Assembly: GCA_022711655.1 (NCBI GenBank)
Contig: JAKLEM010000017.1
Coordinates: forward strand, 1-34,488
Direction: 5' to 3'
Origin: Candidatus Auribacterota bacterium
GTDB lineage: Bacteria; Auribacterota; Ancaeobacteria; Ancaeobacterales; Ancaeobacteraceae
DNA length: 34,488 nt
The position numbers and the translations under genes were made by a program. The notes beneath the pieces were generated by a model. It was given only the letters and a program-made list of their open reading frames with translations, was not told the origin of the DNA and did not search any database. Positions 7,226 to 30,477 of the stretch are shown here, piece by piece (positions within the stretch are counted from its first letter, which is position 1; each line of letters begins with the position of its first letter).

Positions 7226-7254
7226 TTGACAATCGGATCGATAGAAAATATAAT
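7226..7254 (+). promoter_or_regulatory. Perfect sigma-70 consensus promoter TTGACA-17-TATAAT
   Basis: TTGACA (7226-7231) and TATAAT (7249-7254) are separated by exactly 17 bp, a full consensus housekeeping promoter. Transcription would begin near 7261. The only thing downstream on this strand before the convergent sixA is the 36-codon ORF starting at 7319, giving a 5' leader of about 58 nt. A strong promoter in a 260-bp gap between two minus-strand genes implies a real short transcript. Confidence 0.8.
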
Positions 7255-7318: not shown

Positions 7319-7429
7319 ATGAGCGGTCGTAAAACCCTGGCCAGCATATGTATCAGTTCTCTGAAAAAGCTGCTCGGCTCCCTATTGGAGAGCTTCCATA
7401 TCGCAGGCCGCATGCCGTGGGCCGATTAG
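7319..7429 (+). CDS. Candidate 36-residue amphipathic peptide
   Basis: ATG at 7319 is preceded by GGAGG with 8-nt spacing and lies about 58 nt downstream of a perfect promoter. The peptide starts MSGRKTLASICISS and continues KKLLGSLLESF, which would form an amphipathic helix (about residues 5-28), then ends GRMPWAD. It matches no family I recognise. The frame is open further upstream (ATGs at 7253 and 7259), but those lie in or before the predicted transcription start. The stop TAG overlaps the end of sixA on the opposite strand. It could be a small membrane-associated peptide or toxin, a regulatory peptide, or an incidental ORF within a small RNA. Confidence 0.45.
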   Translation: MSGRKTLASICISSLKKLLGSLLESFHIAGRMPWAD

Positions 7430-25772: not shown

Positions 25773-26585
25773 TCACATGCAGTATTGCTTGCAGGCTCGC
25801 CCTTCCCGGTTCCTATAGAAGTTCCTGATCCCCCGGAACAGATTGTAGATACGCGACGTCTTCGCCCAAAGCAACAGGTCATACTGATCCCGCTCTGTCA
25901 ACTTGATCCTGTTCAGCGCGAAGAGATCGGTGTTCAGCACTGATGCCGAACGGTTGGTGGTGCAGGCGCCGATATATCCCGCCTTCCTCGCCGCCTCCGC
26001 TGTCTCCGCGCTGTAGCCGCCGAGCGGGTAGCATAGGAGATTCACCGGGGACCCGAGACGTTTCTCGAGCAGATCCTTCGACTCGCGCACTTCGCGGAAA
26101 TACGCATCGGCGACGAGCGACGGCAAAAATGCATGACTGACGCTGTGAGAGCCGATCATTATGCTGTTGGCGCACATCTCTTTCGCCTGGTCGCTCGAGA
26201 TGTAGCCGGGAGTCCCCAGGTAGTCGGATGGGATAAACACGGTCGCGGGGAACCCGGCAGCTTTCAACAGCGGGTAGGCGTTGGCGTAGTTGTCCTCGTA
26301 GCCGTCGTCGAACGTGATGACGACGCACTTGTAGGGGAGCTGCGTCGCCTTGCCGGCCGAGCGAACATACTCCTCGAGAGATATCACGAAAAAGCCGTTC
26401 TTCTGCAGGAACTCGATCTGCTTCGCGAAGACCGCCGGCGAAACGACCGGCGTTTGCAGCCGCGAATCCGCGCCGACGCTGTGGTACATCAGGATCGGGA
26501 CCAGCGAGTTGGAGAAGGAAACAAGGACCACCCCCGCGACGGCGGTAAACAGCAGCAATGTCACTATGAGGAAAAAACGTTTCAT
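25773..26585 (-). CDS. Membrane-anchored polysaccharide deacetylase (NodB/CE4)
   Basis: This 270-residue protein has an N-terminal signal or anchor (1-25). Its CE4 domain shows LMYHSVG (32-38), the catalytic and metal aspartates in TFDDGYEDN (D93, D94), and the metal histidines H147-x3-H151 in GSHSVSH. CYPLGGYSAET is the counterpart of the usual YPFG motif. It should remove acetyl groups from N-acetylated polysaccharide at the cell surface. The final 30 residues are basic with two cysteines. It is divergent from the 29-residue basic gene; the hairpin at 26615 and the promoter at 26642 lie between them. Confidence 0.93.
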   Translation of the reverse strand: MKRFFLIVTLLLFTAVAGVVLVSFSNSLVPILMYHSVGADSRLQTPVVSPAVFAKQIEFLQKNGFFVISLEEYVRSAGKATQLPYKCVVITFDDGYEDNYANAYPLLKAAGFPATVFIPSDYLGTPGYISSDQAKEMCANSIMIGSHSVSHAFLPSLVADAYFREVRESKDLLEKRLGSPVNLLCYPLGGYSAETAEAARKAGYIGACTTNRSASVLNTDLFALNRIKLTERDQYDLLLWAKTSRIYNLFRGIRNFYRNREGRACKQYCM

Positions 26586-26614: not shown

Positions 26615-26640
26615 CGAAACGGCGGTTATCCGCCGTTTCG
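26615..26640. repeat. Perfect 11-bp inverted repeat with TTAT loop
   Basis: CGAAACGGCGG, loop TTAT, then CCGCCGTTTCG forms a perfect, GC-rich hairpin ending one base before the -35 box at 26642. There is no U-tract, so it is not a normal terminator. The arm equals the terminus of the element at 20521-20690 and the core equals 3315-3328. It may be an operator for the adjacent promoter or a collapsed mobile-element remnant. Confidence 0.75.
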
Positions 26641-26641
26641 A

Positions 26642-26669
26642 TTGACAGAATCGTTTTTCATTATATAAT
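26642..26669 (+). promoter_or_regulatory. Strong sigma-70 promoter TTGACA-16-TATAAT
   Basis: TTGACA (26642-26647) and TATAAT (26664-26669) are 16 bp apart. Transcription would start near 26676, about 20 nt before the ATG of the 29-residue basic gene. Both hexamers are perfect, indicating high expression. Confidence 0.85.
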
Positions 26670-26696
26670 GGGGCGAAATAAAAGAAAGGATTTAAT

Positions 26697-26786
26697 ATGG
26701 GCAGACAGTACAATCGCAGAGAGAAGCGGACCCGCAAAAAGCAGTACATCAAACGTAAAAAAGCGGCGCTTAAGAAAGCGAAGTAG
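26697..26786 (+). CDS. 29-residue highly basic protein
   Basis: ATG at 26697 has AAGGA 6 nt upstream and follows a near-perfect promoter. The product starts MGRQYNRREKRTRKKQYIKR and ends KKAALKKAK. Fifteen of 29 residues are Lys or Arg against one acidic residue, and there is no signal peptide. Size and charge are like tiny ribosome-associated proteins or nucleic-acid-binding tails; I cannot assign a family with certainty. It stands alone: divergent from the deacetylase and convergent with the cyclase gene. The combination of promoter, RBS and compact 3' region makes it very likely to be a real, highly expressed gene that length cut-offs would miss. Confidence 0.75.
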   Translation: MGRQYNRREKRTRKKQYIKRKKAALKKAK

Positions 26787-28706: not shown

Positions 28707-29657
28707 CTACGCCCGGCCCTTTCTTCCGATAGATCTCAGGCAGGCTTCCACGATCTTCTCTTTAGTCAGGCCGTATTTGAGCTTGAGCTCGTCGCTCTCG
28801 CCCGATTCGCCGAAAACGCCGGCTATGCCTATCATCTCGACGGGGACCGGAAAATTCGCCGCGAGACATTCGGCCACCGCGCCGCCGAGACCGCCGGCCA
28901 GCTGATGCTCTTCGGCGGTGACCGCGGCACCGGTCTTCTCCACCGATGCCAGCAGCGTTGCCGCGTCAAGCGGCGCGATTGTGTGCATATTGATGACGTC
29001 GGCGCCGACGCCTTTCTGCGCGAGCTCGGCCGCCGCGTCGAGCGCGTCGCGCACCATGATCCCGCAGGCGACGATCGTGACGTCGTTGCCGCGGGCAAGC
29101 AGGTTCGCCTTCCCGATGCCGAACGTATCGGGCACCGCCGTTACCGCGGGGGCCGGGTTGCGGCCGACGCGTATGAAGACCGGACCCTTCCACGATGCCG
29201 CTGCGACCACCGCCTTGCGCGCCTCTTCCGCATCGGAGGGGACGAGGACGCACATGTTCGGCAGGACGCGCATCAGCGCGATATCCTCGAGCATCTGCGC
29301 CGTCGCGCCGTCCGGCCCCACCGTGATCCCGCTGTGCGTCCCGACGATCTTCACGTTGGCGTTGTTGTAGCAGACCGAGACCCGGATCTGGTCGAGCGCG
29401 CGGCACAGGATGAACGAGCTGAACGAACAGGCGTACGGCACCTTGCCGGCAAGCGCCAGCCCGGCCGCGGTGCCGATAAGGTCCTGCTCGGCGATCCCCA
29501 TATTAAAAAATCTGTCGGGGAACAGCTTTTCGAATTTGTCGGTGCGCGTCGAGCCGGCCATGTCGCCTGTCAGGGCGACAACCTCGGGCATCGCCTTCGC
29601 CAGCTCGAGCATGCCGTCGCCGGCACCGTCACGCGTCGCTCTCATCTTTTCTGCCAT
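28707..29657 (-). CDS. Transketolase, C-terminal subunit
   Basis: This 316-residue protein comprises the pyrimidine-binding and C-terminal domains of transketolase, encoded separately from the TPP domain. FFNMGIAEQDLIGTAAGLAL holds the catalytic glutamate (E76, in GIAEQ), and THSGITVGPDGAT is a typical active-site loop. Split transketolases are common in archaea and several bacterial phyla. It starts 4 bp after the N-terminal subunit gene, so the pair is co-translated. It transfers two-carbon ketol units between sugar phosphates in the non-oxidative pentose phosphate pathway. Confidence 0.94.
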   Translation of the reverse strand: MAEKMRATRDGAGDGMLELAKAMPEVVALTGDMAGSTRTDKFEKLFPDRFFNMGIAEQDLIGTAAGLALAGKVPYACSFSSFILCRALDQIRVSVCYNNANVKIVGTHSGITVGPDGATAQMLEDIALMRVLPNMCVLVPSDAEEARKAVVAAASWKGPVFIRVGRNPAPAVTAVPDTFGIGKANLLARGNDVTIVACGIMVRDALDAAAELAQKGVGADVINMHTIAPLDAATLLASVEKTGAAVTAEEHQLAGGLGGAVAECLAANFPVPVEMIGIAGVFGESGESDELKLKYGLTKEKIVEACLRSIGRKGRA

Positions 29658-29661
29658 ATAG

Positions 29662-30477
29662 TTACCCGATCTCCTTCAGAGCCCGCTCCAGCTCTTCCCT
29701 GCTCGGCGCCTTGCCGTGCCAGTCGGGGTTCAGCTCCATGAACGAGACGCCCTTCCCTTTGACCGTCGCCGCGTTGATCAGCGTCGGCTTCCCCTTCGCC
29801 GCTTCCGCGCCGTCAAGCGCGTCCATGACCTGCGAGATGTCGTGCCCGTCGACGTCGATCACGTTCCAGCCGCACGAGCGGAACTTGTCGGACACCGGCG
29901 CGAGGTCTTTGACCTTTTCGGTGAGGCCGTCCTGCTGGACCCGGTTGCGGTCGAGGATCGCGCAGACGTTGTCAAGCTTCCGGAAACCGGCCGACATCGC
30001 CGCCTCCCAGACCTGCCCCTCGTCGATCTCGCCGTCGCCGAGGATGCAGTAGACGCGCCTCGCGCTTTTATCGAGCCTGGAAGCGAGCGCCCACCCGTTG
30101 GCGACGGACAGGCCCTGCCCGAGCGACCCCGTCGATAGTTCCACGCCGGGAACCCCCCGGTAGGCGTGCCCCTGCAGGAGCGCGCCAAGCTTGCGGAACC
30201 GCGAGAGCTCCTCTTTCGGGAAAAAGCCGCGGTGCGCCAGCGCCACATAGAGCGCGGGGCTGCAGTGCCCTTTCGAGAGGATGAAGATATCGCGGTCCGG
30301 CCAGGACGGATCTTTCGGGTCGATGCGAAGCTTGTAGCAATAGAGCGCGATGACGATCTCGACCATCGACAGGGAACCTCCCGGATGGCCGGAGCCCGCG
30401 CCAAAAACCGTCGTCACGATGTCCCTGCGGAACTGCCTCGCAAGCGCGGTGAGCGTGTTGATATCAGGTCTGTTCAT
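29662..30477 (-). CDS. Transketolase, N-terminal (thiamine-diphosphate) subunit
   Basis: This 271-residue protein is the TPP-binding half. It has SGHPGGSLS (29-37), SKGHCSPALY (68-77), the ribose-phosphate and TPP contacts GSLGQGLSVANG (117-128), and the metal/TPP motif GDGEIDEGQVWEA (147-159) followed by DRNRVQQDG. It pairs with the next gene to form the active alpha2-beta2 enzyme. It is the first gene of the leftward sugar cluster and is divergent from the 6-phosphogluconate dehydrogenase gene across a 118-bp gap that has a promoter for the latter. Confidence 0.95.
   Translation of the reverse strand: MNRPDINTLTALARQFRRDIVTTVFGAGSGHPGGSLSMVEIVIALYCYKLRIDPKDPSWPDRDIFILSKGHCSPALYVALAHRGFFPKEELSRFRKLGALLQGHAYRGVPGVELSTGSLGQGLSVANGWALASRLDKSARRVYCILGDGEIDEGQVWEAAMSAGFRKLDNVCAILDRNRVQQDGLTEKVKDLAPVSDKFRSCGWNVIDVDGHDISQVMDALDGAEAAKGKPTLINAATVKGKGVSFMELNPDWHGKAPSREELERALKEIG

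Follow-up and report, generated by a model that had tools for sequence, protein, structure and literature searches.

The window analysed here, a stretch of 34,488 nucleotides that makes up one contig of a genome of 1.62 Mb and 75% completeness (G000), carries a 29-codon gene for a strongly basic peptide, MGRQYNRREKRTRKKQYIKRKKAALKKAK, of which 15 of the 29 residues are Lys or Arg when counted by eye. Judged by sequence comparison, the peptide belongs to an unnamed family that is under purifying selection and was missing from our searches of Pfam, NCBIfam and PDB. Because it is tiny, basic, single copy, strongly constrained and encoded by a free-standing gene, which is the profile of bS22, we infer that the peptide is probably a small, lineage-restricted ribosomal protein that would occupy an rRNA pocket and has so far escaped annotation. 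The preliminary description of this DNA had taken the ORF for a real but overlooked gene. This is now strongly supported, and the ORF stands far above chance expectation, because homologues occur in many genomes and purifying selection on them is strong.

The gene, its promoter and the upstream palindrome

The compact ORF with 15 basic residues, the good RBS and the near-perfect promoter that had been described from the letters were all recovered (Table 1). A site similar to the RBS precedes the gene in many relatives, whereas several members from Verrucomicrobiota are without a clear one. A scan of 600 bp found one promoter of this kind against 0.2 expected, and the whole window contains only two exact matches where none was expected. 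In the sister genus (G001), a near-identical promoter, TTGACT-16-TATAAT, is situated at the equivalent position. The second exact promoter of the window, TTGACA-17-TATAAT at 7226-7254 (+), enters the gap between two minus-strand genes. Downstream of it there is a 36-codon ORF starting from an ATG at 7319 (7319-7429) with a GTGGAGG-like RBS, and the two together are possibly a further small gene or an RNA.

Table 1. Features of the peptide locus, in coordinates of the window.
Feature	Position	Strand	Remarks
Divergent neighbour, probable polysaccharide deacetylase (cluster c19)	25773..26585	-	read by eye; context, outside the family
Perfect palindrome, 11-bp arms, 4-nt loop	26615..26640		ends 1 base upstream of the -35; not conserved
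Sigma-70-type promoter TTGACA-16-TATAAT	26642..26669 (-35 26642-26647; -10 26664-26669)	+	12/12 to consensus
RBS GAAAGGA	26684..26690	+	from sequence; ATG 6 nt further on
29-codon gene (stop TAG included), basic peptide	26697..26786	+	conserved single-copy family, purifying selection

The perfect hairpin reported beside the -35 box is indeed present, with a fold z of -5.0, and the 10-bp core of its arm has no other match in the window when up to 3 mismatches are allowed. Its suggested regulation of the peptide promoter, however, found no support, as the promoter is retained in the sister genus with no such palindrome upstream of the gene, and as the palindrome lies outside the transcript of the gene. 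Transcription of the peptide gene is expected to start only downstream of the palindrome, which therefore cannot form a hairpin in the mRNA of that gene. We rejected a terminator or an RNA attenuator, in view of the missing T-run, the position 5' of the expected transcript start and the absence from the sister genus; an Rfam search of the region gave no match. The start codon of the divergent gene is about 30 bp from the palindrome, which is upstream of it. With this arrangement on both sides, the palindrome may serve as an operator or belong to the 5' leader of the divergent gene.

In the sister genus, the peptide gene likewise adjoins the divergent probable deacetylase gene, and synteny extends to a small probable zinc-ribbon gene, a two-part transketolase and others. 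The homologue in the sister genus is MGQQHNAREKRARKKAYIKKTKKTTAKNKKES. The two peptides share 16 of 27 residues despite differences at 37 of 81 nucleotides; random substitution would leave 7 identical residues, and 16 were reached in none of 5000 simulations. Among the loci examined across phyla, the neighbours of which were read by eye, there was no universal neighbour of any kind and no recurrent ribosomal one. Location outside a ribosomal operon is compatible with a ribosomal protein, for which operon membership is not required, as small unlinked ribosomal genes exist. Two other observations were made in this part of the window. The transketolase consists of two adjacent half-genes (28707-30477), an arrangement kept in the sister genus, and two proteins with PEP-CTERM-like C-terminal sorting signals are encoded at the contig end (32053-34470).

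Distribution and conservation of the family

A search of related genomes with the 29 residues alone, as had been proposed, recovered homologues in three genomes of the same phylum at 54-59% identity. Loss of the reading frame in relatives had been named as the evidence that would speak against the gene; the frame is kept. We then extended the family by iterated profiles (alignments A1, A2, A3, A5 and A6). Within its own phylum, four lineages were positive, namely f1 (2/2), f4 (2/2), f7 (most genomes) and f10, and 13 of the 17 families gave no match in profile searches, the sensitivity of which is limited for such short proteins. The phylum that we take to be Verrucomicrobiota (that of G311), with what are probably the genomes of Akkermansia muciniphila and Opitutus terrae, had the family in 148 of 195 genomes, and in 138 of the 184 that were at least 90% complete. 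All seven genomes were positive in the phylum of G121, presumably Dictyoglomota, to which the probable genomes of Dictyoglomus thermophilum and D. turgidum belong, as were 12 of 40 in the phylum of G258. Single occurrences were found elsewhere (G230, G147 and G191), and one homologue (G011) is located in JACPWU010000032.1, from a groundwater MAG that was submitted under the name of a Chlamydiae bacterium. G000 had a single match, as did each of the positive genomes in the phylum of G311.

Of 384 genomes sampled broadly, 19 had a match and most of the phyla sampled had none, within the same limit of sensitivity for short proteins. True matches were cleanly apart from noise, with E-values of about 1e-7 or lower for 18 of the 19 and a single borderline case. 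The weak matches L008, L016-L019, L027-L029 and L192 were taken as noise. By these profile matches, the family is common to Verrucomicrobiota, Dictyoglomus and several uncultured phyla, with one copy per genome.

The family consensus is M[GS][KQR]Q-x-[NR]-x3-KR-x-RR-x2-Y[LI]KR-x-K, with a variable tail behind it. When the profile was built with the phylum of the window left out, the window peptide scored 57.6 bits, compared to 27.0 for the best of 2000 composition-matched shuffles. The information content peaked at the N-terminal M[GS]xQ and at Tyr17, beyond Lys and Arg alone, so the conservation is specific. An orthologue pair from Dictyoglomus had 14 synonymous and only one nonsynonymous codon difference, and its identity was 85% in the ORF compared to 40% just past the stop. 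AlphaFold2 predicted a single helix for the homologue of the sister genus (residues 7-31, pLDDT 88.9) after a short N-terminal tail; no significantly conserved helical face was detected (p = 0.36). Most members have 29-45 aa. In Akkermansia-type members and a few others (L084 1501-1908, L147 and L176), the 30-residue core is followed by a long Ala/Lys/Pro-rich, H1-like tail, resulting in a total of 90-135 aa. Searches of Pfam and NCBIfam with the window peptide and about 30 relatives returned sub-threshold noise only, profile searches of PDB with A1, A3 and A6 matched zero chains, and the motif strings of the family had no match in a literature search.

Possible roles of the peptide

Among the candidate roles listed in the preliminary description, association with the ribosome is now the best-supported one, with binding to DNA or to another RNA as the possible alternatives. 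The family has the general traits of ribosomal proteins in that it is small, basic, single copy and strongly conserved within lineages. We infer that Met would be removed from the N-terminus and that the short tail and the one predicted helix (residues ~7-31) would sit in an rRNA pocket, where the peptide would offset the charge of the phosphates and lend stability to the subunit in its folded state. Such an action would be comparable to that of bS22, eL41 and bTHX, each at its own site. What speaks against a ribosomal role is the lack of ribosomal genes nearby, the missing matches in most phyla sampled and in 13 of the 17 families of its own phylum (within the limited sensitivity for short proteins), the Ala/Lys-rich tails of Akkermansia-type members and the lack of a significantly conserved helical face. 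There is about an even chance that the peptide is a previously unnamed, stoichiometric structural protein of the ribosomes of Verrucomicrobiota (including Akkermansia), Dictyoglomota and several uncultured phyla, at an rRNA site that this protein does not fill in the solved ribosomes.

The peptide might instead be a ribosome-linked but non-structural factor, acting in assembly, hibernation or stress, or it might be the partner of a stable RNA, for example RNase P RNA or 6S RNA. Restriction to certain phyla would agree with this, as would a gene that stands alone under a consensus promoter of its own, and such action is generally known for small basic peptides. However, the near-universal presence in Dictyoglomota suggests a constitutive part, and we regard a factor of this kind as unlikely, though worth keeping in mind.

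We consider it quite improbable that the peptide is nucleoid-associated, with its basic helix on DNA and the H1-like tail of longer members compacting the DNA. The Ala/Lys/Pro-rich tails of the Akkermansia-type and some other members point in this direction, as do their weak matches to histone H1-like proteins (HC2, Burkholderia type), and in the Akkermansia-type members the tail could have a DNA role. But these matches concerned the tail only and were below the cut-offs (14.8 vs 40 for Pfam HC2 and 19.1 vs 80 for NCBIfam in the Akkermansia-type member), the conserved core has no such region, and the 29-aa protein of the window had no HC2/H1 match in Pfam or NCBIfam. Most members are tail-less, and the conserved M[GS]xQ with the near-invariant K10, R11, R14 and R20 implies one specific partner, not generic DNA. 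Low-complexity tails occur on ribosomal proteins too, as in the longer chloroplast relatives of bTHX.

The equal size class and charge could also make the peptide a diverged bS22 or bTHX of this organism, which is very hard to reconcile with the profile searches. Both proteins scored like shuffled sequence on the leave-phylum-out family profile, bS22 at 12.5-16.3 bits, inside the shuffle range, and bTHX at a noise-like 4.0 bits (the bTHX, Mycobacterium bS22 and Flavobacterium bS22 queries were confirmed in PDB). G000 has a separate, clear bS22 gene, MPCGRKKRKVKMNKHKRKKRLKRDRHKKK (G000:C16:2651-2737, L140), the sole match of the bS22 search in this genome, with a motif nearly of the Borrelia/Bacteroidota type. 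The bS22 profile was positive in 34 of the 42 genomes tested, including most of those bearing the family; no bS22 match was obtained in G230, G014, G413 or any of the five Dictyoglomota genomes tested. That the ORF arose by chance, with a composition biased towards basic residues, has only its very short length in favour; conservation, synonymous bias and synteny refute this reading, which can be practically dismissed.

Comparison with known small basic proteins

A ribosomal role would mean that the ribosomes of whole phyla, the gut commensal Akkermansia included, contain an extra protein, which has no name in current annotation models and no entry in PDB by sequence. Were the peptide not ribosomal, its function would still call for an explanation, since proteins of some 30 residues with near-universal presence and strong selection across phyla must do something. 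In either case, the motif may be of use to annotators, as the gene usually falls under length cut-offs.

Known ribosomal proteins of this kind are equally short, bS22 and bTHX having 27-33 aa. The family resembles eL41 in its single basic helix of about 25 residues, but eL41 obtained 20.6 bits on the family profile, less than the best shuffle, and this gives no evidence of homology. With bTHX (Thermus Thx; plastid PSRP4/S31) it shares the tiny size, the basic charge, the start MGK and, in some lineages, long extensions around a short core, the chloroplast relatives of bTHX being longer; the shared motif, however, is MG only. The closest parallel in character is bS22, an AURKAIP1/COX24-type small-subunit protein with the analogues mS38 and eL41, which likewise has about 30 residues, 50-60% Lys and Arg and a helical fold. 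The family is like it in size, charge, single copy and the lack of a fixed neighbour, although the sequence motif is another one. In Borrelia, bS22 has 30 aa with 61% Lys and Arg, was missed by genome annotation and was found only as density in cryo-EM, in a pocket formed by the 16S helices h2, h27, h44 and h45 (PMC10618245). If the peptide described here is ribosomal, its case would repeat that discovery on a larger scale.
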